This document shows positions 208 through 29,175 of a stretch of DNA of 29,999 nt, one piece after another; within the stretch, counting starts at the first letter, position 1; every line of letters starts with the position of its first letter. Below the pieces are notes generated by a model. That model worked only from the letters and a program-made list of their open reading frames with translations. It searched no databases and was not told the DNA's origin. This DNA is from a virus, in IMG/VR virus record IMGVR_UViG_3300031565_000242, positions 1 to 29,999 of that record; one strand, 5' to 3'. A program made the position numbers and the translations under genes.

Positions 208-843
208 ATGAAATACCTGCTTTCACTTATCGTAACTCTTGTTCTGATAAGCACTTGCAACGCAGCAATCATCACTATTGAGGCCGATGATTTTGCTGCC
301 GGCACGGATATGGGTATGATTTACGATGATATAAGATTTCGTACTTACAATTTTGCAGGTGGTAAAAGTAGCACTATTTTCGCATTAGAATCATCCAATC
401 CCCTGGGCCTCTTTGGTGATAATTCAATCGGCTGGCAAGACCCTGCAACATCTCTTTTCTATGAATGGTGGTGGAACGTACCCCGTCTTGAAATAGTCAT
501 CGACAACGGTTTTGCTTACCGTATCGATATAAGTGTTACGGCCAAAAGCGGCACGATACCCGGCCCTGTGTTCGTCAAAAGTTATAATAAGTGGTACGAA
601 GTGCTTACGGCAAACTCTACTACCCCCAGTTCTGCTCACATCTCAAATCTTTATACCTATCGTGAAGCCTGCGACATAAAGTATTTTAAGGTTTATTCGT
701 TGGCCTGCTTTGCCCTGGATAACATCCGTATCGACTATCAGCCTGAAGTGCCCGAACCCTCAACTATCATTCTTCTTGCTGGGGGGTTGTTGTTTTTGCG
801 GCGCCGTTCATATCCGCCTGCGCATCCTGGCGTATCTGCTTAA
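208..843 (+). CDS. PEP-CTERM sorting-signal protein
   Basis: An exported protein of 211 residues. Residues 1-19 form a Sec signal peptide (charged MKY, hydrophobic core, probable cleavage after CNA). The mature part is a beta-rich domain starting ITIEADDFAAGTD, an opening seen in planctomycete-type PEP-CTERM proteins. Near the C-terminus comes VPEPS, a hydrophobic helix (TIILLAGGLLFL) and RRR, the classical PEP-CTERM tripartite signal that exosortase recognises at the inner membrane for transfer to the outer surface. After RRR there is an extra tail (SYPPAHPGVSA) where such proteins usually end. That tail, and the sorting signal itself, lie antisense to a small - strand ORF of the phage operon (767-937), so the 3' end may be a junction between flanking and viral DNA. 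The function of the mature domain is unknown. Confidence 0.85.
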   Translation: MKYLLSLIVTLVLISTCNAAIITIEADDFAAGTDMGMIYDDIRFRTYNFAGGKSSTIFALESSNPLGLFGDNSIGWQDPATSLFYEWWWNVPRLEIVIDNGFAYRIDISVTAKSGTIPGPVFVKSYNKWYEVLTANSTTPSSAHISNLYTYREACDIKYFKVYSLACFALDNIRIDYQPEVPEPSTIILLAGGLLFLRRRSYPPAHPGVSA

Positions 844-1193: not shown

Positions 1194-4100
1194 GGTTTCA
1201 TAATTTCCTTAATTTGTTGTAAATACTGTTTTCGTTTCCTGGTATATTCATCTTTGCTTATATTGCCGCTTTTTAACCTTTGAGCAATATCCAGCATTTT
1301 GCTGCTAATTTCTTTGGCCTGTCGTTTTTTATCGAATAGTTTGAATTTCTTTTGTTCCTGAACGTCTATTGCCTGTGTGCGAAGTCCGAATAATGTATGT
1401 GCTGTGGTTTCGGGTAATGGCCGGACTTTGCCCGTCTTGCTCGGCTTTTTCAATACAGCTTGTTCAAGTTTATCCCAGTACAACCCTTTAGGGGCAAGGG
1501 ATGGCGTAAGACTTGTCCAAAAATATTTGAACATCTTGAGGCTTTTTTCTTTGGTTGTATCGGTTTCCTTATAAATTTCCCTATCCGTCCATGTCGATTT
1601 ATTATGTATTAGGTCCGAAGCGATTTGAAAAAACGGGTTGGTTATGGCTGATTCGAGTACTCCTCTGCTACTTGCGTTGGCAAGTTCTCCCCAGGGCAGA
1701 ATATATGTCCAGTCGAAAAATCGCAGGTCTCCGTTGTTATCCCGGTAGGGCATAAGCATATAACTGCCGTTTCGCATATATTCGGGCAAAACCTTAGTTA
1801 TTTCGCTGTAATCCTTGTCTGTAAGGTTCAATTTTGCAAGTGAGTACTGTGTTGTCATTTTCGCAATCAATGGATATTTTGCTATTGTATGCGGTCTTGC
1901 TGTTGCGGCCTCAATAACTCGCGGCAGGGCTTTTCTCGGAAATGTATAAAACGGCATAACCCGCCGTGCTATATTTATCTCCCATCGCGTCAGGTCTCCG
2001 TAATCAAAAAGCCATTTATTTGCTTCCTGTACCGCGTCCATCACCGATTTGCCTTGGTCACGCTGCTGGAGATATTTCATGAATTTGTTTATAAATTCCT
2101 CGTGTTGGTACATTTTAGCGGGTTCGCGAACTGCCTTTTTTACGCCGCCGCGAACCGCATTTATCGCCTTGCTAAAGTCGCTGCCTTTGGTCTGTGTTTT
2201 GAGAATATCATCAAGTAGTTCCCCTTTTAATTGCGTTGTCCTCGCAAAGTAATGTTTTGCTGTTGTGTATTCATCGCTGTTTTGTTTGTAATGTTTGAAC
2301 GCTTTAATTGCATATTTTGCTTGCTCCCCATATCCCATACCACTAAGGTCCAACAGTATTTTGTTGGAAAATTTATTACGGAAATGTGTTGCTGGATTGA
2401 GTACTACTTTGCCAAGTTTCCACGACCCGATTAAAGTATCATATATCTGCTCAAACCCGGTGCGCGTCCGTACAATTTCCGTAACATCATCATAAATTCG
2501 CGGATTTACCCATTTTTCCCGCAATGCGCCTAATGCTTTTGTATCACCCAGTTGTTTGAATCCCGGGATTGGAATGTTGCTCGTCCATTCGGGATTTTGG
2601 GCTGCAAACTCAAATAATTTTCCCGTTTCTATATCCGCGCCTTCCTGGATAAGTCTTTTCATTACCGGATACGCCGGTTCCTTTATTTCGCCCATCATTT
2701 TCCGTACTTCAAATGGAATTGGTTGCCGTTGTTTGGCATAATGCGCACGAATACGTTGGGGACTCCATCCGTAAAATTGTTTTTCAAGCACACTAACCTC
2801 TTTGCTTGTATACATCCGCGGCATATATTTAAGGCCGCCTGCGGCAATATCCGATTGTTTGAGTTGACGCGCAATATCATCAATGTTGGTTTGCAATTCT
2901 TCGATTTTTGAAGCTTTACCTGGAAACCGTCTTTGCATAGAACCTATTTTTCTCAACAACGGTGCCTTGCCAATTATTTTACTATCTTCTATTTGTGAAG
3001 CAATTTTAAGTATATCGTTCAGTGTTTGATTAACATACTGAGAAACTTTAGGATTGATTGTAGCGGCCTGTTTTAAGATTTCGGTTGCTGCCTTGTTTCG
3101 TGATGCTCTGTCCATCTTTTCTAAAGACAAAATCTTTTTGCCTAAAATCGTAAGCCTTTTATCGCCAGGCGCAAAATCCATCAACGTTGTTATCTTCTTT
3201 GCTAAAGGACTGCCGGTGCTAACTTCAATGGCAGCATCAATAAAATCATCTCCGGCAGTAACAAGTTTTTTGCCTCTTCGTTCTGCCTTTATTGCAACAT
3301 CAATAAATTTATCTACTAACCGTTTTTGTCTATTCACATCTGGTGTAAGTTTTTCAACTAATTTCAATAAGGTTTTTTGGTATGGCACTTCTTTGAGTTT
3401 TTCTATTTCTCTGACTAACTCAATCTTCTTTTGCATCAATGCCGCAACGCGTTTTTTTGGTAATTTCGTAAGGTATGTTTCCTTTCCAAGAATGCCGAGA
3501 TTTTGCAATTCTCTTGTTGTATGCTCAAACTCAGCAATAATAGGATTCGCTTTTTCGGCCAGTTGTGGTTTTGTGGTAATACCCCCTTTGATAATCTGGC
3601 CGATTCTCAGTTTCACTGCTTCAGGCGTTATCTTTTTACCCGTCTGTTTTGTCAGTTCCTGTGCGAGTCTTTTGATGTCTTTTCCACCGACAGATTTGCC
3701 CAGTTCTGCGGCTTGTTCGGTTCTTGCACCCATCTTGGCCCGCATTATCAATTTGCCTTTTTGCCATTCCGGCAATCGTGCCTGTGCTATTTTTTGTGGT
3801 ATCCCGGTCAACTTTGCTGTTTTGCTGATTCCTTGCAGCAATTTGCCAAAAACCATCGGGTCAACAAGAAAACTTGTTGCCATATCCATTCCTTTGCTGT
3901 AATAACCCGGCGCTTTTTCTCCCGTAACGGACTCATAATATCCGTCCCAAAAATCGCCATACGTCTTGACTTCTTTCGGAACATCCGCTCCCGGAATCCA
4001 CGCCTTGCCGACCGCTTTCATACCTGTGCCCAGGGCCTGCAATTCTTTTGTGGCTTCTTCTTTGGTAAGGTCAAATCGTGGTCTGAATAAATTCCCAAAA

Positions 4101-11914: not shown

Positions 11915-12742
11915 TTATTCGTATCTTGACCGGTTGCGGTCTTTTGTTTCCAGGTAATTCATGTCTTCCCCGTTGACGTAAAGCCAGCTAATCTCAGCCT
12001 GTGTCAATGCACGGTTAAACAACATAAAATTATCGAGAACAAAAACTGTATGTTTGCCTGTCTCCTCATAAGAGCCATCTGGAGCACCTATAAAGATGTC
12101 CGAACCCGCATAACTGACATCTGCAGCACTTGTAAATCCTATTACAGGGCCATCCAAAACCGCGTTGTTGTAAATGTATGCCTTTTTTGCCGTGCAATCA
12201 CGCACCATAGTTATCATGTGCGGAGTGTCATCTGCGTAATGAGATGTATTCAACTCGATATTATCTCCAATCCCCAAAGAGAAATCTATATCTGACCCCT
12301 CTACGTTTTGCAGGTGTATTCTAAGTTCATCACCCTTGTAAAAAACTACGCTCTTATCACTACCCAAAGATGCAGACTTCAGCCAAAAACAGACAGTATA
12401 GCTGCCCGTACCAAATTGAATGGCCGGGCAATCTGGAATTTGAATAATCCCAAAATTCCCCAGTGGGAAATCATTGATTGTGAAAGCTCCAGAACCAACC
12501 AAACCTGTCACATGGCTGTAGCTGGTGTCTTCCATATTGTCTGGCGGGTCAAAGCCCTCGAAAATGGCGTGCATCGTTGCGTGGTTTCCATAAGGTGAGC
12601 TGTCGAGAACAACATTGCTGTCGGCGTTGTCGTTGCACTTCAGTTGCAGCACACAATAGTTCCGCAGGGTTTCGTACCGTTGCCTGTCTGCGTATGCGGT
12701 CATTGCCAGAAACAACAAAATGTAGAGTATTTTCTTCATCAT
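11915..12742 (-). CDS. Exported LamG / concanavalin A-like lectin domain protein
   Basis: 275 residues. The signal peptide is residues 1-18 (MMKKILYILLFLAMTAYA). The rest is one LamG-like domain: VLQLKCNDNADSNVVLDSS and GNHATMH (strand and turn typical of LamG), GSYTVCFWLKSA (the conserved W-containing central strand), HMITMVRDCTAKKAYIYN, then LDNFMLFNRALTQAEI followed by WLY, the hallmark closing motif of this family. Such domains bind glycans. The ATG overlaps the adaptor stop. It probably attaches to cell-surface or matrix polysaccharide, either on the virion or after export by the infected cell. The export signal is the odd part. Confidence 0.8.
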   Translation of the reverse strand: MMKKILYILLFLAMTAYADRQRYETLRNYCVLQLKCNDNADSNVVLDSSPYGNHATMHAIFEGFDPPDNMEDTSYSHVTGLVGSGAFTINDFPLGNFGIIQIPDCPAIQFGTGSYTVCFWLKSASLGSDKSVVFYKGDELRIHLQNVEGSDIDFSLGIGDNIELNTSHYADDTPHMITMVRDCTAKKAYIYNNAVLDGPVIGFTSAADVSYAGSDIFIGAPDGSYEETGKHTVFVLDNFMLFNRALTQAEISWLYVNGEDMNYLETKDRNRSRYE

Positions 12743-13398
12743 TAAAACCTCGGCACAGCCCTTGCCTGGCTGATTTGTTTCAATAGTGGACGGTTAATCT
12801 GCTGGATATGCCACTGGTACGTAGGCACAAGTTCTTTTGCTTCATCGGTTTCGTTATTGTCCATACGAATCAAAATGGCGGTTCCGTAGGCAATAGCAGG
12901 CCCCCAGCGGACATCAAGAGGCACCAAAGAATCACTTGACAAGGCAGCGGGTTTCAAGTCCGCCGCCATCTTGACGGTATAAACCGCATCAGCCTTCGGT
13001 GCTGCATAGAGGATATTGTTATACAGTAAAAACGCTGCGGGCTGGTTTTCCTCCGCTGTTTCATCTGTACTGTCCGCCGGGTACAGTTCAAAGAATTTGT
13101 CCTTGTTCAAATAAAGGGTAGCATTGGAGACATAATCATCCGAATCGGTAACTGTAAGCGGTGTGCTGATAGTAATAACCGTTTCACCAAGTGTATATTC
13201 CCCGCCGTCACCGCTGGCCGTATCGAATGAGTACCAGCCTTTTATTTTTGCCGCATAAACATCTGTCGGGAACTGGTTACGGTAAAAATCGTTGATTAAA
13301 TCATTGATGTCGCTGTCCGATAAATCCGCCGTATCCTGTCTTTGACATAGTTTGCGTACCTTCGCCCGTATTTCCGCTAAAGTCCAGGTGATGGACAT
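12742..13398 (-). CDS. Head-tail adaptor protein (SU10 adaptor / P22 gp4-like)
   Basis: 218 residues. The N-terminal helical region (TLAEIRAKVRKLCQRQDTAD, LSDSDINDLINDFYRNQFP) is the standard opening of adaptor proteins that dock under the portal. A beta domain follows (TLGETVITISTPL, ATLYLNKDKFFELYP, LLYNNILYAAPKADAVYTV), and then a C-terminal helix with RWGPAIAYGTAILI, equivalent to the 'a.a.Ga...l' segment of this family. The start is supported by GAGG nine bases upstream. It would form the ring linking portal and nozzle. The exported LamG gene follows with a one-base overlap. Confidence 0.75.
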   Translation of the reverse strand: MSITWTLAEIRAKVRKLCQRQDTADLSDSDINDLINDFYRNQFPTDVYAAKIKGWYSFDTASGDGGEYTLGETVITISTPLTVTDSDDYVSNATLYLNKDKFFELYPADSTDETAEENQPAAFLLYNNILYAAPKADAVYTVKMAADLKPAALSSDSLVPLDVRWGPAIAYGTAILIRMDNNETDEAKELVPTYQWHIQQINRPLLKQISQARAVPRF

Positions 13399-23696: not shown

Positions 23697-25169
23697 CTAC
23701 CCATAATTCAAAGGTTTTCTGTGCCGGTCTGCAAGCTCCCTGGCTTGCTCTGCCGTCATACCCACTCTGCCGCATTTTTTTACGGCTACCGAAGCGTAGC
23801 GCATCATATCCGCCGCATGGTCTGTACCATCCTTTTCCGGCACACCGGTAAACACCGGATTGTCCTCTGTGCTCATTTGCCGATTGATACGTTCGTGGTA
23901 TCCCTGCAAGCACTCAATCAGCCTGGCACATCGAACCTTATCAAACCGGCAGCAGTCAAGAAACTGCCGTGTCCGCTCGATACCCTCGTTTACCCGGTGC
24001 TCACGAGGTAATGCCTTCGGCAAATAATGGAACTGCCGCAGGGTTTCAATCGCCGTCTCACCCGTGATTATCCTGGTTGCGTTGCTATCCATATCGCACG
24101 GCACAAATATATCTGCGTAACGGTACCCACGTTCTAACTTACGGGCATCAAATAACTCAACGTACTTTGCAATACTTAACCCGCTATCCTCGTAATAATC
24201 GATAAAATTAACATTGGTCTCAATCACCTGCATAAAACCAATAGCGGTTGTATAGCCAGGGTCCATAATGATATATACCGGATAGTTCGGGTTATGGTCA
24301 AGGTAATCAAGGAACCGGCCCTTTTTCTCAAGTTCGGCCATCTTCTTGCCGTAGTATGCACCCTCAGCTCCCTTCTCGGATATGCCGCCCTCAACACGCA
24401 CCCTGTATTCATCCGAATCAACCCCATACTTGAGCCTAATCCGCTGCTCATAGTCACGGCCATAAACGCCTGGTATAAGTTGCTCGCCCGTCTGATATAC
24501 CGGTGTATCCTTCACCGAAATCTGTATCCGGTTCCAGGTCGGGTCACGCAAGGCCGCTGCAAAGTCGCCGTACTTGCTTGTGGGATTACCTATAGCTAAC
24601 ACCCGCTTAAACGGTGCGCCGATGTGCTCTATCGCCCTGTATATCTCTGGTAATATGCCCGCTGCCTCATCGAGTATAATCAGCACGTGCTCATTGTGTA
24701 TGCCCTGTACCTTTGTGGCCTCTTGAGTAATCGTGTCCTGGCGTGTCGAAATACCTACGGCATACCATATCCGCCCTGTCGCAGGCTGCATATCAAGCAT
24801 AGTCGCGGTCAGCTTGCCGCCTAACGGAATCCGGGCGCCACTGTGAGCCGTCCTTATCTCACGCCAAAGTAGGTTTTTGACCTGATGTCCGCTCGGTGCG
24901 GTAGTTACCACTGTGCAAGGGCAATAACAATACAAAAATGTCAACGCAATCCGCGCCGCCCCGTAAGTTTTGCTCACACCGTGCCCCGCCTGTACGGCTG
25001 TACGCTCGTTATCACGCACAGAATCATTGACTTCGCACATCTTCGACCAGAGGTGCTCAGGCTGGACGTCTAATGCGTGGGTCATAAACCAGTTATAGTC
25101 CTGCTGGCCGCGTGTAACCAATTCCTGGGCCGCCTCTGCATCAGCCTTGCTTATTGTCGCTGTCTCCAC
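23697..25169 (-). CDS. terL: Terminase large subunit (TerL)
   Basis: 490 residues from a GTG start with GGAG seven bases upstream; the start lies 29 bases inside TerS. The N-terminal ATPase has a Walker A at 62-68 (GHGVSKT), a Walker B (VLIILDEAAG, with D167 and E168) and a coupling motif (IGNPT, 193-197). The C-terminal RNase H-like nuclease has candidate metal residues D303 (IIMDPGY), D359/D361 (VPCDMD) and the DGTDHAAD block (447-454). It drives DNA into the prohead through the portal and cuts the concatemer. The sequence looks intact, with no missing catalytic residue. Confidence 0.95.
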   Translation of the reverse strand: METATISKADAEAAQELVTRGQQDYNWFMTHALDVQPEHLWSKMCEVNDSVRDNERTAVQAGHGVSKTYGAARIALTFLYCYCPCTVVTTAPSGHQVKNLLWREIRTAHSGARIPLGGKLTATMLDMQPATGRIWYAVGISTRQDTITQEATKVQGIHNEHVLIILDEAAGILPEIYRAIEHIGAPFKRVLAIGNPTSKYGDFAAALRDPTWNRIQISVKDTPVYQTGEQLIPGVYGRDYEQRIRLKYGVDSDEYRVRVEGGISEKGAEGAYYGKKMAELEKKGRFLDYLDHNPNYPVYIIMDPGYTTAIGFMQVIETNVNFIDYYEDSGLSIAKYVELFDARKLERGYRYADIFVPCDMDSNATRIITGETAIETLRQFHYLPKALPREHRVNEGIERTRQFLDCCRFDKVRCARLIECLQGYHERINRQMSTEDNPVFTGVPEKDGTDHAADMMRYASVAVKKCGRVGMTAEQARELADRHRKPLNYG

Positions 25170-25575
25170 TTACAACTCCACTTATAGCCTGCGCCAAAGT
25201 TACCTGCCCGCTTACATCGAGCTTCTTTGTGATTCTCTGCCTGAGGGCATTATACTCTCTGATTGCCCCCAGCTTCGAGCCAAAATCGGCATCTTGGGTT
25301 ATAAGAAAAGCTAATTGTTTATCAACATGCTCCTCATTAAGGGTCACCTGAAGCAAATCATTGATATAGGCTAAAACGTTAGTGCTTGTTAGTAGCTTAT
25401 GGGCATTGACTTTAGCGGTGTTGTAGCCCCCTTTTTTGCTCACGTCAATGTCATAGGCCTCACCGTATGATTGTACGCCATTGCCGAAGAACTCCCTATC
25501 TGTAGCATATAATTCGCAGAACCGCTTTCGCCGGAGCGTCAACTTGGCAACCTGTTTTTTGGCTTTATTCGCCAT
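25141..25575 (-). CDS. terS: Terminase small subunit (TerS)
   Basis: 144 residues when started at the ATG at 25575, which has GAAGGG six bases upstream; a GTG seven codons earlier lacks that support. The N-terminal part is a helix-turn-helix type DNA-binding region (LRRKRFCELYATDREFF, GVQSYGEAYDID, GYNTAKVNAHKLL), as in the Terminase_2 family. A central oligomerisation helix and a C-terminal tail (LDVSGQVTLAQAIS) follow, as in TerS proteins that contact TerL. It recognises the packaging site on phage DNA. Confidence 0.85.
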   Translation of the reverse strand: MANKAKKQVAKLTLRRKRFCELYATDREFFGNGVQSYGEAYDIDVSKKGGYNTAKVNAHKLLTSTNVLAYINDLLQVTLNEEHVDKQLAFLITQDADFGSKLGAIREYNALRQRITKKLDVSGQVTLAQAISGVVSGDSDNKQG

Positions 25576-25602
25576 ATAATTCCCTTCTTGAAGCACTAAA
25601 AA

Positions 25603-25731
25603 CTACTTCTTATGGCCCAAAATCAGGCTCCACGCAAGCCTAAAAACCTTTGCTCTGATCCGCGCATCAATCACATTCTGCGCGCCTTTGCGTTGTACTG
25701 CAACTTTTTTTTGTCGTTTATGAATTGCCAT
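25603..25731 (-). CDS. Small very basic ORF at the head of the late operon
   Basis: 42 residues, starting MAIHKRQKKVAVQRKGAQNV and ending HKK, with many Lys and Arg and one hydrophobic patch (FRLAWSLILG). A nucleic-acid-binding role is possible but unproven. The ATG lies only nine bases after a TATAAT hexamer, so the transcript would have almost no leader and I see no SD. It may be translated leaderless, or it may not be a gene at all and the region may simply be the leader of TerS, which starts 27 bases downstream. Confidence 0.4.
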   Translation of the reverse strand: MAIHKRQKKVAVQRKGAQNVIDARIRAKVFRLAWSLILGHKK

Positions 25732-25739
25732 GCCATACA

Positions 25740-25766
25740 ATTATATCATCTGTTTATTTTTGTCAA
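25740..25766 (-). promoter_or_regulatory. Candidate late-operon promoter
   Basis: On the - strand TTGACA (25766-25761) and TATAAT (25745-25740) are both perfect, but the spacing is 15 bases, two below optimum, so activity could be weak or activator-dependent. It points toward TerS. The region up to 25900 is A-rich on this strand and includes a TGTTG/CAACA dyad (25783-25800) upstream of the -35, a possible activator or repressor site. Confidence 0.55.
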
Positions 25767-25899
25767 CATCTTTTTACATATTTGTTGTTTTTCTTCAACA
25801 GGTGCTGTTAGCCAAGTGTCCAGTGATTATTTTATTTCTCTGTTTTTCTGCGTTTTCAGGCCAATAACAATGATTTTCAGCCTTTTTTCGGATTTGCTA
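25767..25899. promoter_or_regulatory. Divergent control region without genes
   Basis: This T-rich (+ strand) stretch lies between the two divergent promoters. It holds the TGTTG-N8-CAACA dyad (25783-25800) and two copies of a TTTTCAG(G)CC word near 25854 and 25874. The open frames across it are T-rich chance products. It is a likely place for phage regulators to switch between the small-gene operon and the late operon. Confidence 0.45.
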
Positions 25900-25927
25900 T
25901 TGACTTTTGGCTGTTTCGGACGATAAT
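25900..25927 (+). promoter_or_regulatory. Candidate promoter of the + strand small-gene operon
   Basis: TTGACT (25900-25905) and GATAAT (25922-25927) each match five of six consensus bases, with a 16-base spacer. Transcription would start near 25934, 16 bases before the long inverted repeat, so the transcript would begin with the structured RNA described next. Confidence 0.6.
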
Positions 25928-25949
25928 AGATAGAGAGGTAAAAATTTTA

Positions 25950-26033
25950 TGGACTCGGCTAAAAACACAATCCAATATCAACCAACAAGCTCGCCTTGTG
26001 TCTGCGTTGCAATTCTGACTTTAGCCGAGTCCA
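25950..26033 (+). ncRNA. Candidate structured leader RNA closed by a 14-bp stem
   Basis: TGGACTCGGCTAAA (25950-25963) is perfectly complementary to TTTAGCCGAGTCCA (26020-26033). Inside the 56-base loop, ACACAA (25965-25970) pairs with TTGTGT (25996-26001) and CAAG with CTTG around a CTCGC loop. The whole forms a compact RNA of about 84 bases at the very start of the predicted transcript. A 63-codon open frame begins one base before the stem, but such perfect pairing argues for RNA function. No known riboswitch or ncRNA family is recognised. Confidence 0.5.
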
Positions 26034-26042
26034 GTCTTCAGC

Positions 26043-26084
26043 GCGGCACAGGCGGGCTTGTTTTATTTATGAAAGGGCAGGTAA
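26043..26084 (+). repeat. Start-associated element, degenerate copy 0
   Basis: GCGGCACAGGCGG (26043-26055) matches the GCGGCACAG half of the later elements without the full dyad. It is followed by GAAAGGGCAGGTAAA, identical to the sequence before the gene at 27091, and directly by the ATG at 26085. Confidence 0.6.
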
Positions 26085-26582
26085 ATGGTATCTGTAAAAA
26101 GTATTCTTGGAGATTACGTGCAAAAACAGAAAAACTATGAGCAAAAACGCGGTAAAATTAACAACAGGATAACCCAGCGCGAAAATCAAATTAAAAGGCT
26201 CAAAAACAAACTTACACGATTGGATCCTATAAACTGGATTGATGAGATACTCCAACCTATCGCTGAGTTACTTGTAAAAAAAATGCCTGACCGGTATTAT
26301 GAGATTTTAGGGCCTTTTGGCTTAACTTCACACACAGCCCTACATTTCTACAAAAAAGAAGTGACTAACAAAAACCGTTTTGAGAAAGGTAACTGCTTGA
26401 GTATAGATTTCAGGCCAGTTAATCTCGATATAGGCGAAATTGTCCTTGTGGATAATACTACTGATACTGGCAAATATAAGAACGGCACAATGGGGGAAGT
26501 AAACGGAATGAACCACCCCAACGTGCCAATGAAAAAAACCATAGACGAATTATTAGACTGGATAAATCGGCAGAATGCCTAA
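26085..26582 (+). CDS. Coiled-coil accessory protein, unrecognised
   Basis: 165 residues. Residues 1-60 form a charged coiled coil (YVQKQKNYEQKRGKINNRIT, then QIKRLKNKLTRLDP). A globular C-terminal domain follows with RYYEILGPFGLTSHTALHFY and NCLSIDFRPVNLDIGEIVLV, and the end is helical (KKTIDELLDWINRQ). No family is recognised. The start is fixed by GAAAGGGCAGG eight bases upstream, part of the repeated element. It is the first and longest gene of the + strand small-gene operon, so it may be an early phage function such as host takeover or DNA handling; this is position-based only. Confidence 0.65.
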   Translation: MVSVKSILGDYVQKQKNYEQKRGKINNRITQRENQIKRLKNKLTRLDPINWIDEILQPIAELLVKKMPDRYYEILGPFGLTSHTALHFYKKEVTNKNRFEKGNCLSIDFRPVNLDIGEIVLVDNTTDTGKYKNGTMGEVNGMNHPNVPMKKTIDELLDWINRQNA

Positions 26583-26584
26583 CA

Positions 26585-26660
26585 GGCTGACCGGCTTTAG
26601 CCCGGTTCGAGTCCGGGCACAGCCTTTGAGATTATTAACCTTAACTGAAAGGGTAAAAAA
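26585..26660 (+). repeat. Start-associated element A1 with T-arm-like hairpin
   Basis: GGCTG (26585-26589) can pair with CAGCC (26620-26624). Inside lies GCCCGG-TTCGAGT-CCGGGC (26600-26618), a perfect tRNA T-arm (G53 to C61 pattern). Then come ATTATTAACC, TTAACTGAAAGGG and the ATG at 26661. Together with A2 it forms a direct repeat of about 55 bases. Confidence 0.8.
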
Positions 26661-27020
26661 ATGGCACGGTACAAAGCAATTTGGATTTATGGCCCGCAAT
26701 GTACGCGGGCAGGGCAAGAAAAAGCACGCCGCGAAGCCAGAACACTCCCGGAATTCGCACAAAAACTCTGCCAAGTTTACGGGAACTTTCTCGGAGACGG
26801 CTTCAGTTGCTACGAATTCAAAAATGAGGATGCCGTCTTCAACTGTTTCGGCTCCGATGATTTGCCGGACTGGTTCGCGGCCGTAACTGGCTACCCTGTA
26901 TACGTTTTCTCAAGCTGTTTCGGACGAGAAATCTTATGCAATCCGACCGCCACTGCGATTATCAATCAGATTCGCGGCGAATCCTACGGTGATTATGATT
27001 TAACGATTATGGGTGTTTAG
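26661..27020 (+). CDS. Small accessory protein, unrecognised
   Basis: 119 residues. The N-terminal half reads ARYKAIWIYGPQCTRAGQEK, a strand followed by a basic helix. Later come VYGNFLGDGFSCYEFKNEDA, LPDWFAAVTGYPVYVFSSCF and a short C-terminal part ending TIMGV. Several Cys and aromatic residues suggest a small folded domain. The start is chosen because GAAAGGG of element A1 stands eight bases before it; the frame at 26575 on the same strand overlaps and lacks this support. Function unknown; probably a non-essential early or host-interaction gene. Confidence 0.65.
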   Translation: MARYKAIWIYGPQCTRAGQEKARREARTLPEFAQKLCQVYGNFLGDGFSCYEFKNEDAVFNCFGSDDLPDWFAAVTGYPVYVFSSCFGREILCNPTATAIINQIRGESYGDYDLTIMGV

Positions 27021-27090
27021 GCTGCCCGGCCTGGTTCGAGTCCGGGCACAGCCCGTAAGATTATTAACCTTAACTGAAAGGGCAGGTAAA
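27020..27090 (+). repeat. Start-associated element A2 with T-arm-like hairpin
   Basis: This is the second copy of the A type. GGCTG (27020-27024) faces CAGCC (27049-27053). The inner hairpin is GCCTGG-TTCGAGT-CCGGGC (27029-27047): relative to A1 a C has become T, which keeps the pair as G-U. ATTATTAACC and TTAACTGAAAGGG are identical to A1. Its first base is the last base of the preceding TAG stop. Confidence 0.8.
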
Positions 27091-27285
27091 ATGGCTGATT
27101 ATATAAATTGTAAATGTTGCCACACGGCCTGTCGCATACGCCGCAGTAAACGGCACGACAAGACCAATCCTGATATATTGCTATGCGGCGAAATTATCTA
27201 TCATCAAAACGGTACAAAGGAATGGCGGGAATACGGCAGAGTCAATGAAAAAACTAATCAGATATTGTCTATGAGTCTTCTTTAG
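27091..27285 (+). CDS. Cys-rich small protein, possible zinc binder
   Basis: 64 residues from the ATG at 27091, directly after GAAAGGGCAGG; the longer open frame from 27013 would include the element itself and is rejected. The N-terminus has C7-x-C9-C10-x3-C14 (NCKCCHTACRIRR) with a further Cys at 32 (LLCGEIIYHQNGTKEWREYG), enough for a small zinc site. No family is recognised. Small zinc-finger-like proteins are common among phage early genes, but a DNA- or protein-binding role is inferred only. Confidence 0.6.
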   Translation: MADYINCKCCHTACRIRRSKRHDKTNPDILLCGEIIYHQNGTKEWREYGRVNEKTNQILSMSLL

Positions 27286-27315
27286 CGGCACAGCCGCAGA
27301 AAGGGATATAAGATT
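27283..27315 (+). repeat. Start-associated element B1
   Basis: The TAG stop of the preceding gene runs into AGCGGCACAGCCGCAGAAAG (27284-27303). GCGGC-ACA-GCCGC is a 5-bp hairpin with a three-base loop. AAAGGG then provides the ribosome site for the ATG at 27316. Confidence 0.8.
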
Positions 27316-27558
27316 ATGGGCCTTAATTATGATAACGAGCATTGCCGCATAGCGGCTAAAATGTTGGAAACAGAACCAGACTTGCTGGATTACCGCCTGA
27401 TAGAATACTTAAATGCTATATCTGCGCTTATAATTTGTGGAGGCGGAGAATTTATCAGCAGGCAAGCAATAGCCGTAGCTATCGTAGGCTGGAGAGAAGA
27501 TAAAGCAGATGATTTTACCGAGATAGCGGCACAGCCGCAGAAAGGGTTAAAAAAATGA
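27316..27558 (+). CDS. Small accessory protein with element-encoded tail
   Basis: 80 residues. It is acidic and helical (HCRIAAKMLETEPDLLDYRL) with a central hydrophobic stretch (NAISALIICGGGEF) and a helix with REDKADDFTEIA. The last ten residues (AAQPQKGLKK) are translated from the repeated element B2, because here the TAG of the element is out of frame, and the stop overlaps the next ATG (ATGA). Function unknown. In the other copies the element begins at the stop codon, so a small indel or a recombination event may have extended this protein. Confidence 0.6.
   Translation: MGLNYDNEHCRIAAKMLETEPDLLDYRLIEYLNAISALIICGGGEFISRQAIAVAIVGWREDKADDFTEIAAQPQKGLKK
27524..27554 (+). repeat. Start-associated element B2
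   Basis: AGCGGCACAGCCGCAGAAAG at 27525-27544, identical to B1 and B3, followed by GGTTAAAAAA and the ATG at 27555. It lies inside the end of the preceding reading frame instead of after its stop. Confidence 0.8.
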
Positions 27559-27746
27559 CAGTGCGCAATGATTGGGTTGGCCATTTACGCAGGTACACTC
27601 TTAGGGAATTGCGCCGCCGGCAAAGCATAAATGAACAGCAAATACAGATTGCATATAAAACTCACAACGCCGATGCTTTAGTGCAGTTGCAAAATATGAA
27701 TGATAGTTTGGCTGAAGCTGTATATCTGAATGAATTTGCTTATTAG
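27555..27746 (+). CDS. Small helical accessory protein
   Basis: 63 residues, basic N-terminus (TVRNDWVGHLRRYTLRELRR) followed by one long helix (INEQQIQIAYKTHNADALVQ, then LQNMNDSLAEAVYLNE) that is likely to dimerise. No family is recognised. The start is coupled to the preceding stop (ATGA) and has the element's AAAGGG eight bases upstream. Confidence 0.6.
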   Translation: MTVRNDWVGHLRRYTLRELRRRQSINEQQIQIAYKTHNADALVQLQNMNDSLAEAVYLNEFAY

Positions 27747-27774
27747 CGGCACAGCCGCAGAAAGAGCAGGAAAA
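27744..27774 (+). repeat. Start-associated element B3
   Basis: The TAG stop of the preceding gene is its first three bases. AGCGGCACAGCCGCAGAAAG spans 27745-27764, and GAGCAGGAAAA leads to the ATG at 27775. Here AAAGGG has become AAAGAG, but AGCAGG supplies an SD-like site. Confidence 0.8.
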
Positions 27775-27969
27775 ATGAACACAATAGAATCAATCCTCAA
27801 ATTAACAAACCAGATAATTAACGACTGGCACGCTGACGCTGCCAACATCCTCAAAGAAGAACCAGCCGGATTACGCTTGGCGCGGGCAATCAAAGACAAC
27901 GCTAATCGAGGGTTACAAACTCAGGCGGCCAAATGGCTGGGCAATGCTCAGCTTACTTTGGGCACTTGA
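27775..27969 (+). CDS. Small helical accessory protein, end of the + strand operon
   Basis: 64 residues, starting MNTIESILKLTNQIINDWHA and continuing ILKEEPAGLRLARAIKD and LQTQAAKWLGNAQLTLGT. It appears fully helical. The longer open frame from 27730 includes element B3 and is rejected. No family is recognised. It is the last clear gene before the convergent junction with the - strand genes. Confidence 0.6.
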   Translation: MNTIESILKLTNQIINDWHADAANILKEEPAGLRLARAIKDNANRGLQTQAAKWLGNAQLTLGT

Positions 27970-28168
27970 TATTGAGACTGGCAACGTATTCAAACAGGTT
28001 GACCAACTTCATACTACAGAAGGCCCGGCAAGGTCAATAAAGTGCCCGTAATGACCGAGATAATTTCAAGTGCGGGGGGGTTTTCCCGCCAATAGGACAA
28101 AGTCGCAACACAGGGCCAGCCAGAGGCCTTAAAATGGATTCTGGCGACTTAACCGTCCAGCCTTATAA
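27970..28168. other. Convergent intergenic region with GC hairpin
   Basis: About 200 bases between the + strand operon and the - strand 50-aa gene. The notable feature is GCGGG-N8-CCCGC (28072-28089), which includes a seven-G run and a four-T run. It could serve as a terminator for either direction, but neither strand has a real U-tract after it. Short open frames here (14-30 codons) have no SD. Confidence 0.4.
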
Positions 28169-28321
28169 TCATATCGGTCCCCAACTAAACTCTGGATTCG
28201 GAATAGGTTCACAAACAGCGATATAAACACCAATGCTGTCCGGCGGCAAATCATATTCTTTAGCCAGTTTTTGCCATACCAACTCTGACAATTCTGATTT
28301 ATATACCCGTATAGCCTTCAT
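28169..28321 (-). CDS. 50-residue protein, unrecognised
   Basis: The sequence starts MKAIRVYKSELSELVWQKLA and ends in NPEFSWGPI, with a short acidic helix and a strand IGVYIAVCEPIP. AAAGG stands nine bases before the ATG. A 30-codon frame on the + strand overlaps but lacks a ribosome site. The gene follows the lipoprotein gene after a hairpin. Function unknown. Confidence 0.5.
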   Translation of the reverse strand: MKAIRVYKSELSELVWQKLAKEYDLPPDSIGVYIAVCEPIPNPEFSWGPI

Positions 28322-28340
28322 ATCATTTACCTTTGCCAAT

Positions 28341-28384
28341 GCGCCCCGCCAAGTCCTTTAGCAGCAACAGGCCGGACGGGGCGC
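28341..28384 (-). other. 8-bp GC-rich hairpin after the lipoprotein gene
   Basis: GCGCCCCG (28341-28348) faces CGGGGCGC (28377-28384) with a 28-base loop. On the - strand it lies between the lipoprotein stop and the 50-aa gene. No U-tract follows, so it is at best a Rho-type or processing signal. Confidence 0.4.
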
Positions 28385-28394
28385 GTACGTATAA

Positions 28395-28838
28395 TTATTC
28401 TTTCGCAGGCAGTTTCCTCAAGGCCCGGATAATGTTCTCGGCCTTCGGGCCTATGGTTTCCGCCAGATACCCTTCAAGGTTGTCCCACTGTTCGCGGTTG
28501 GCTGCCTTGTATGCCTCAATCCCTTGTACGATTGAAGCCGTTGCGCTGTAATACATCTGGCTTTGGGTCTGTGCCGTCACCAATTTAGGTTTGACAGTTT
28601 TCCAGGTTCCATATACCGCACCGCCCGCCGTTGCTACCGGCAAAAGAAAAGGCCAGACAATCCCCAATAGCCCCAGTATGCCGATTGCCGTCTCTGCCGC
28701 CCGCTCAACCTGCCCCACAGTGTTCGGGTCAAGCGAAGTCTGTGTTTGCCCGGTTACGGGGTCTTTCGTACTTATGCAGCCAGCCACTACGAGCGACAGC
28801 CCTGCACACATTACAATTAACAACAATACTTTTTTCAT
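28395..28838 (-). CDS. Phage lipoprotein with a hydrophobic Gly-rich segment
   Basis: 147 residues. A lipoprotein signal peptide (MKKVLLLIVMCAGLSLVVAG then C21, lipobox VAGC) means export and lipid attachment at C21. A polar linker (STKDPVTGQTQTSLDPN) leads to a long hydrophobic stretch at about 50-78 (AIGILGLLGIVWPFLLPVAT, AGGAVYG) that could cross or enter a membrane, followed by a charged helical C-terminus. A lipoprotein with a second membrane segment fits a lysis or superinfection-exclusion role, and it could be partner to the membrane coiled-coil protein at 927-1193. Neither is proven. AAAGGAG stands just before the ATG. Confidence 0.7.
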   Translation of the reverse strand: MKKVLLLIVMCAGLSLVVAGCISTKDPVTGQTQTSLDPNTVGQVERAAETAIGILGLLGIVWPFLLPVATAGGAVYGTWKTVKPKLVTAQTQSQMYYSATASIVQGIEAYKAANREQWDNLEGYLAETIGPKAENIIRALRKLPAKE

Positions 28839-28842
28839 TTTG

Positions 28843-29175
28843 TTACTCCTTTCCTGACTGTAGTAATTCGATAAAATCGTTCAAATCGAGACACACATAG
28901 TCCCGCTCATTGTTTCGACTGAAAATTAAAAGACCTTTTTTATATCCGGCCTGTGTAAATGTCTGCCGAAGTGAATCCCAAATGTTCAAGTGTTCCTGTT
29001 TCTTGCACTCGATTACATAGGGGGCAAGTACCCCGTCCAGGTTGCGCAGGTCCCCTTTTATATCAAGCGCACCGGAACAAGGCACACGCCGCACATTACA
29101 ATCAAAAGCCCTTGACAACAGCTTTGCAATATGCCTTTCGTAGCCTTTACCTTTTCTTTGTGCCGCGCTTGCCAT
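28843..29175 (-). CDS. PD-(D/E)xK nuclease, Holliday-junction-resolvase-like
   Basis: 110 residues with the compact layout of small archaeal-type resolvases: GKGYERHIAKLL (E13), a basic strand ending in SGALDIKGD (S34, D38, D42), then the catalytic E56-C-K58 (IECKKQ) and a strand GLLIFSRNN. D42, E56 and K58 would bind metal. Such enzymes cut branched or damaged DNA, which a phage uses to resolve replication and recombination intermediates before packaging. The start follows the preceding TAG stop closely, with only a weak AGAG, so coupling is likely. Confidence 0.75.
   Translation of the reverse strand: MASAAQRKGKGYERHIAKLLSRAFDCNVRRVPCSGALDIKGDLRNLDGVLAPYVIECKKQEHLNIWDSLRQTFTQAGYKKGLLIFSRNNERDYVCLDLNDFIELLQSGKE

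Follow-up and report, generated by a model that had tools for sequence, protein, structure and literature searches.

A small hairpin abutting a weak Shine-Dalgarno sequence recurs at gene starts in a tailed-phage operon and in unrelated phages

Hairpins upstream of a gene start are usually treated as obstacles to translation or as regulators of it. The closest described system to the locus considered here is that of the start-associated sequences (SAS) and extended SAS (ESAS) of cluster K phages, which are dispersed repeats lying directly upstream of starts, contain the Shine-Dalgarno (SD) sequence and accompany non-structural genes only (PMC3203893). The SAS is a 13-mer, GGGATAGGAGCCC (with at most two deviations), situated 3-7 bp before the start codon; about half of its copies have an inverted repeat just upstream (imperfect, 17 bp), and apart from one copy in Corndog it is confined to a single phage cluster (PMC3203893). 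Folded RNA ahead of a ribosome binding site (RBS) has also been considered in other settings: structured mRNAs, such as that of rpsO, dock on the ribosomal platform (Marzi 2007, as cited in PMC4611024), and in work on 5'UTR structures, single hairpins farther upstream gave no rise in translation on their own, and translation was abolished by G-quadruplexes placed 10 bp ahead of the SD (PMC10543253).

Here, we analyzed a 29,999-nt stretch of viral DNA (positions 1 to 29,999 of IMG/VR record IMGVR_UViG_3300031565_000242; herein referred to as the window), which is part of a tailed-phage genome with its terminase, portal, major head protein and tail fibre genes on the - strand. The window is a 30-kb portion of a 44,251-bp contig (IMGVR_UViG_3300031566_000100) to which it is 100% identical and whose 126-bp repeated ends give a circular map of ~44.1 kb. 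Six small genes form a short + strand run behind one promoter and a leader hairpin predicted at -29 kcal/mol over 25945-26040 (table 1), and database comparison allowed no function to be assigned to any of the six proteins. A 63-aa open reading frame (ORF; 25949-26140) spans the leader inverted repeat and overlaps gene 1, and either a leader peptide or an anti-termination RNA is possible there. The window also carries, at 208-843 (+), a 211-aa ORF with a PEP-CTERM motif (22.9 bits, cut-off 20.7), sitting, in a phage genome, behind a near-perfect TTGACA/TATAAT promoter.

An earlier, sequence-only reading of the window had placed a related element before each of the six small genes, made up of a dyad, GAAAG(G/A)G and an A-rich run into the ATG. 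The sequence bears this out, but the copy at 26043 is weak: it retains GGCACAG and GAAAGGG, its dyad is poor and its minimum free energy fold there has only 3 bp. The named parts do occur in each copy; in copies 2 and 3, however, they are not adjacent, the dyad being a longer hairpin and GAAAGGG lying 22 nt downstream of GGCACAGCC. The identical 20-mer AGCGGCACAGCCGCAGAAAG, noted at 27284, 27525 and 27745, proved exact and on the + strand only; it recurs nowhere else in the window even at three mismatches, and dinucleotide shuffles yield none. The longer repeat shared by two copies likewise stood up, at 54 nt and 93% identity (26600-26653 and 27029-27082), and GGCACAGCC occurs six times on the + strand and never on the - strand of the whole 44.1-kb genome, with five of the six occurrences belonging to these elements. 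Within this genome the element is restricted to the small-gene operon; elsewhere in it AGAAAGG and GAAAGG serve as ordinary SDs without a hairpin.

The anatomy is simplest in copies 4-6, where a 5-bp hairpin (GCGGC-ACA-GCCGC) abuts AGAAAG(G/A), the ATG follows 16-18 nt beyond the hairpin and the stem pairs have probabilities of 0.98-1.0 when a short segment is folded. Upstream sequence in copies 4 and 6 could lengthen the stem across the SD, which, in the predicted fold, would lower access and tells against a role in initiation. What comes after the hairpin is AGAAAGG and not the T run of an intrinsic terminator. Four of the five later copies had been said to lie at or near a TTAG or TAG stop of the preceding gene, which is true of genes 2, 3 and 5, whose UAG stops overlap the element foot (27018-27020, 27283-27285 and 27744-27746; 3/5 junctions), but not of genes 1 and 4: gene 1 ends in TAA (26580-26582) just ahead of copy 2, and the TAG at 27524 is out of frame, gene 4 ending instead in a TGA (27556-27558) that overlaps the next ATG. 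The stops of genes 3 and 5 supply the first paired G of the copy 4 and copy 6 hairpins, and that of gene 2 supplies the first paired G of the long hairpin of copy 3.

The two long copies hold in addition a T-arm-like GGTTCGAGTCC followed by CACAGCC, together with a CCTT able to pair with the AAGG of the SD, and a switch is possible. A tRNA or att-type origin for these copies was rejected, ARAGORN finding no tRNA in the window or in the whole genome. The 19-nt core of the long form occurs in no viral contig besides the window phage, and Rfam returned only chance-level matches in 25000-29000, none above the gathering score.

Table 1. Positions of the promoter, leader, element copies and small genes in the window
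Feature	Position	Strand	Details
Sigma-70-like promoter TTGACT-N16-GATAAT	25900..25927	+	Ahead of the small-gene operon; consensus match only
Leader inverted repeat	25950..26033	+	Arms 25950-25971 / 26012-26033, 86% complementary
Copy 1 (weak)	26043..26084	+	GGCACAG 26045-26051; GAAAGGG 26071-26077; ATG 26085
Copy 2, long form	26583..26660	+	Hairpin CCCGG-TTCGAGT-CCGGG; GGCACAGCC 26616-26624; GAAAGGG 26647-26653; ATG 26661
Copy 3, long form	27020..27090	+	Shares the 54-nt repeat with copy 2 (93% identity); ATG 27091
Copy 4	27285..27304	+	Hairpin GCGGC-ACA-GCCGC 27285-27297; AGAAAGG 27298-27304; ATG 27316
Copy 5	27526..27545	+	Hairpin 27526-27538; AGAAAGG 27539-27545; ATG 27555
Copy 6	27746..27765	+	Hairpin 27746-27758; AGAAAGA 27759-27765; ATG 27775
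Small gene 1, 165 aa	26085..26582	+	Weak match to phrog_14492 (unknown function, E 1.8e-4)
Small gene 2, 119 aa	26661..27020	+	No database match
Small gene 3, 64 aa	27091..27285	+	UAG stop 27283-27285 overlaps the copy 4 foot
Small gene 4, 80 aa	27316..27558	+	3' end reads through copy 5
Small gene 5, 63 aa	27555..27746	+	UAG stop 27744-27746 overlaps the copy 6 foot
Small gene 6, 64 aa	27775..27969	+	

The likeness to the cluster K sequences that had been drawn from the window is apt, for there too an inverted repeat lies just upstream of the SD-containing repeat (PMC3203893). The inverted repeat directly upstream is present here with 5 bp instead of 17 bp, the SD is AGAAAGG with a small-loop hairpin touching it, and the design extends to unrelated phages and bacterial genes; in this genome the element stands only at non-structural genes, and the module is found elsewhere in those unrelated phages and bacterial genes. 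None of the six window starts has GGGATAGGAGCCC, the elements reading AGAAAGG or GAAAGGG. By analogy, the element resembles the extended SAS of cluster K, its closest known counterpart, and is not a member of that family.

One function proposed for the element was that of a portable boundary for gene exchange, in which identical stop-hairpin-SD-start junctions would provide recombination homology in the manner of PeSL, the promoter-terminator cassettes that T4-type phages are said to carry (work reportedly by Arbiol in 2010 and Comeau in 2014). The exact 20-mers and the 54-nt repeat between successive genes would suit such a role, as would the stop codon within the foot at three junctions and the ~20 dispersed composite copies of another phage (G002, below). 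However, no exchange between conserved boundaries is seen. The five nearest relatives (terminases 66-77% identical, one contig 44 kb) mostly have GAAAGG-type SDs and hold no element within three mismatches, and the operon is missing beside the terminase in L468 and L470, where that region is readable at length; elements therefore do not persist while genes change, and the pattern that had been suggested for a check, gene content varying while the elements stay, is absent from these five relatives. Many unrelated phages and bacterial genes have just one copy and need no boundary role, which we regard as improbable. Because the nearest relatives lack the element, the module appears to have been gained within the history of the operon. 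L468 has a start-linked repeat of its own at ~12640-12920 (reverse-complement coordinates), consisting of GGATTGATTGAAAGGATCGAAAATG and a variant with no hairpin, in a + strand operon beside the terminase.

Beyond these relatives, an exact scan with a 19-mer over 2.9 million viral contigs returned 19 stretches with 25 copies in 18 viral contigs (three of the copies being in the window-identical contig). A start codon follows all 25 copies, which lie a few to 16 nt ahead of a plausible start, several of them directly behind a stop; the core thus adjoins starts in other phage contigs, as the sequence-only reading had proposed to check, and does so in unrelated ones. According to BLASTN and protein comparison, most carriers have no detectable DNA similarity and few common ORFs; those compared are unrelated except for G002/G012 and two Aureimonas species, with a few pairs sharing one or two distant proteins. 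At orthologous starts of G002/G012, and of the two Aureimonas species, the element is retained and the flanks diverge. A slightly degenerate scan adds start-linked variants, including GTGGC-TCA-GCCAC (C-G changed to T-A on both sides) and the loops CCA, GCA and TCA, and the stems found differ while retaining their pairing (GCGGC, GTGGC, GCGGG, GCGAG and GCCGG). A 30-nt query containing the element found only coincidental matches among 50,697 phage records of named isolates, the one in PX29 lying on the strand opposite its neighboring genes. Thirty identical bases, CAGCAGGTAGCGGGTAATGCCAATCCTGCC (L074 8090-8119, L085 13365-13394), are common to the window's genome and to contig G014, which is otherwise unrelated to it and in which they lie ~25 nt upstream of a hairpin-SD element.

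Multiplication of the module in G002 and L205 parallels that in the window phage. G002 (IMGVR_UViG_3300018050_001860) holds ~20 modules in 34.9-45.8 kb (L069, L070), with stems of the types GCGGC, GCGGG, GCGAG and GCAAC and most of them behind a second conserved hairpin; the resulting composite of ~75 bp (CCCGAATCCCGAAAACTGGAGCGGGGTTAG... plus the SD hairpin) stands at successive starts in about 18-20 copies. The contig also encodes a tmRNA and six tRNAs. L205 holds four copies of a composite (- strand, reverse-complement positions ~1384-3604) that runs from a GGGGCCCCGCCGGGGCCC hairpin through a spacer to a GCCGG-RCA-CCGGC hairpin, (A/G)GAAAGG and the ATG, with AGAAAGG in three copies and GGAAAGG in one. 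These composites (hairpin, spacer, hairpin-SD) resemble the PeSL cassettes as cited, and the window element is like those cassettes in forming repeated stem-loop cassettes between small genes; it is unlike them in being tied to an SD, in having no U-tract after its hairpins and in showing no promoter at the internal junctions (by eye, at copies 4-6).

Loop and stem are identical at three starts of one operon, and GCGGC-type copies often carry an NCA loop, as would be expected of a binding site through which a specific regulator, protein or RNA, jointly controls these starts. However, a free-stem scan demanding an NCA loop yielded a hairpin at 0/94 new sites (two others were already known), and the loop is therefore not generally demanded. 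The same core, moreover, precedes unrelated phage genes as well as bacterial lon and rpsO, which makes the phage-specific regulator of the sequence-only reading unlikely; for specific regulators as a whole, we consider the explanation highly improbable.

A different concern is that GC-rich palindromes might simply fall beside a common purine SD and have no function, given that AGAAAGG is an ordinary SD in this genome, that huge collections produce coincidences and that several species-genome matches are merely coding sequence. Whether it is the design that recurs, or just its sequence, was examined with the stem left free. Sites of the form GC-N9-GC-AGAAAGG-N7-ATG were sampled from viral contigs, duplicates were removed and the inner three pairs were scored, with arms re-paired between sites as the null and with GTA for ATG, or AAGGAGG for AGAAAGG, as controls; the sets are samples and not a census, with counts taken among the matches listed and from contigs that may be related. 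The 5-bp triloop hairpin abuts AGAAAGG..ATG in 14/98 listed sites against 1.4% expected (binomial p ~1e-10), compared with 2/88 listed sites in the GTA control (expected 1.75%; Fisher p 0.0035 against the ATG sites), and both control hairpins have a real ATG with an open frame slightly downstream. Canonical AAGGAGG..ATG shows a weaker excess (6/105 listed sites, 1.8% expected); that AGAAAGG shows the larger one is no more than suggestive (p 0.058). In a further set of 227 AGAAAGG starts, three 5-bp triloop hairpins touch the SD (gap 0), compared with a single one summed over the 11 other gaps, and in 29 sites gathered with no filter on distance the hairpin ends 14.9 +/- 1.7 nt from the ATG. 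SD-abutting hairpins across all SD types in 1,971 viral genes number 7 against ~2 expected at each of two positions, an excess too small for a general feature of viral starts, which we rejected; the effect is hence tied to AGAAAGG-type starts. The element is real and more than chance: a 10-fold excess over re-paired arms and a near absence without a start codon among the matches listed, together with 25/25 viral 19-mer copies at starts, leave coincidence or ascertainment scarcely credible.

In 84,980 species genomes, GCGGCNCAGCCGCAGAAAGG has 20 matches, of which ~8-9 are at starts and the others are coding sequence; the start-site matches include lon (two Aureimonas species), rpsO (a Clostridia MAG) and a two-copy planctomycete site. 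The free-stem pattern gave 12 matches in 240 alphaproteobacterial and 117 Oscillospirales genomes, which are near-chance numbers and include a single full hairpin, that of the already known Aureimonas lon site, so the module is uncommon in bacterial chromosomes. Starts of lon were read in 30 Aureimonas relatives and one group of seven was examined, in which a hairpin stands against GAAAGG with its outer pair G-C in three sequences and A-U in three, the loops being 3-5 nt in those six. As read from these orthologues, the lon stem change is a compensatory one, resting on one pair, and 10/500 shuffles gave covariation as high. G-U and A-C pairs in the phage sample number 4 versus 2, too few to prove selection at the RNA level.

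We hypothesize, and consider it probable, that the element serves translation initiation as a cis-acting RNA module. The module would consist of a 5-bp hairpin, usually with a loop of 3-5 nt, whose 3' foot lies against the weak, purine-rich SD AGAAAGG, with the start codon 12-19 nt beyond the hairpin. In the 30S initiation complex, a distance of ~15 nt ahead of the start codon corresponds roughly to the upstream edge of the bound mRNA, and the hairpin could therefore stay folded. With AGAAAGG paired to 16S rRNA, the folded hairpin would lie immediately beyond the side of the 30S subunit where the mRNA exits, and may act as a backstop or docking handle that keeps the subunit on a weak SD. Such a role is consistent with the geometry, with the freedom of the stem sequence and with the closer tie to AGAAAGG, and we infer that the element works in initiation at the RNA level. 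A simple unmasking or insulating role for the hairpin is unsupported, because it does not lower the predicted energy of opening the RBS (median 5.2 kcal/mol with the hairpin versus 4.6 with its pairs forbidden, and 5.15 kcal/mol at sites without a hairpin).

Docking of the rpsO type likewise involves a folded RNA on the 30S subunit, directly ahead of the SD; those folds, as far as the citing account presents them, are larger and trap the ribosome for autoregulation, whereas the window element is a 5-bp hairpin with no known ligand. The proposed backstop also recalls the 5'UTR structures that raise translation as physical barriers, which are G-quadruplexes and longer hairpins lying farther upstream than the window hairpins, and the published hairpin and G-quadruplex results count against it (PMC10543253).

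Where a stop codon forms the foot of the hairpin, stop and next SD would be brought close, favoring coupled or re-initiated translation, and the stops in the window suggest that coupling may be aided in this way at some junctions. A stop precedes the hairpin in 27/46 sites, versus 124/382 sites without a hairpin (sites having a stop). This commoner stop, and the mostly intergenic placement of the hairpins, would also follow if they acted in mRNA stability or processing, shielding intercistronic RNA from exonucleases or forming a 5'-terminal stem-loop after upstream cleavage or initiation; the SD hairpin of G002 and L205, preceded by a second, terminator-like hairpin and a spacer, could be near the 5' end of a transcript. 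However, stability leaves both the gap of 0 to the SD and the tight distance to the ATG unexplained, and copy 5 lies within the coding sequence of gene 4, such that we consider this explanation rather unlikely.

For the window phage, an initiation module would have been gained within an early-type operon and then copied to successive gene starts. The recurrence of the hairpin-SD design at gene starts of many unrelated phages and some bacterial genes points to an undescribed translation-start module, and a search of open-licence literature found no description of it. More tentatively, and with somewhat less than even confidence, we suggest that a convergent 'hairpin-backed Shine-Dalgarno' serves phages, and some bacterial genes, as a general module for initiation, making a weak SD efficient or coupling it to the preceding stop, with phages spreading copies over their operons. 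If true, a small hairpin against a weak SD, with a free stem and fixed geometry, would be a simple rule for reading phage operons; it would help in calling the starts of tiny early genes and would offer a testable explanation for start-associated inverted repeats like those of cluster K phages.
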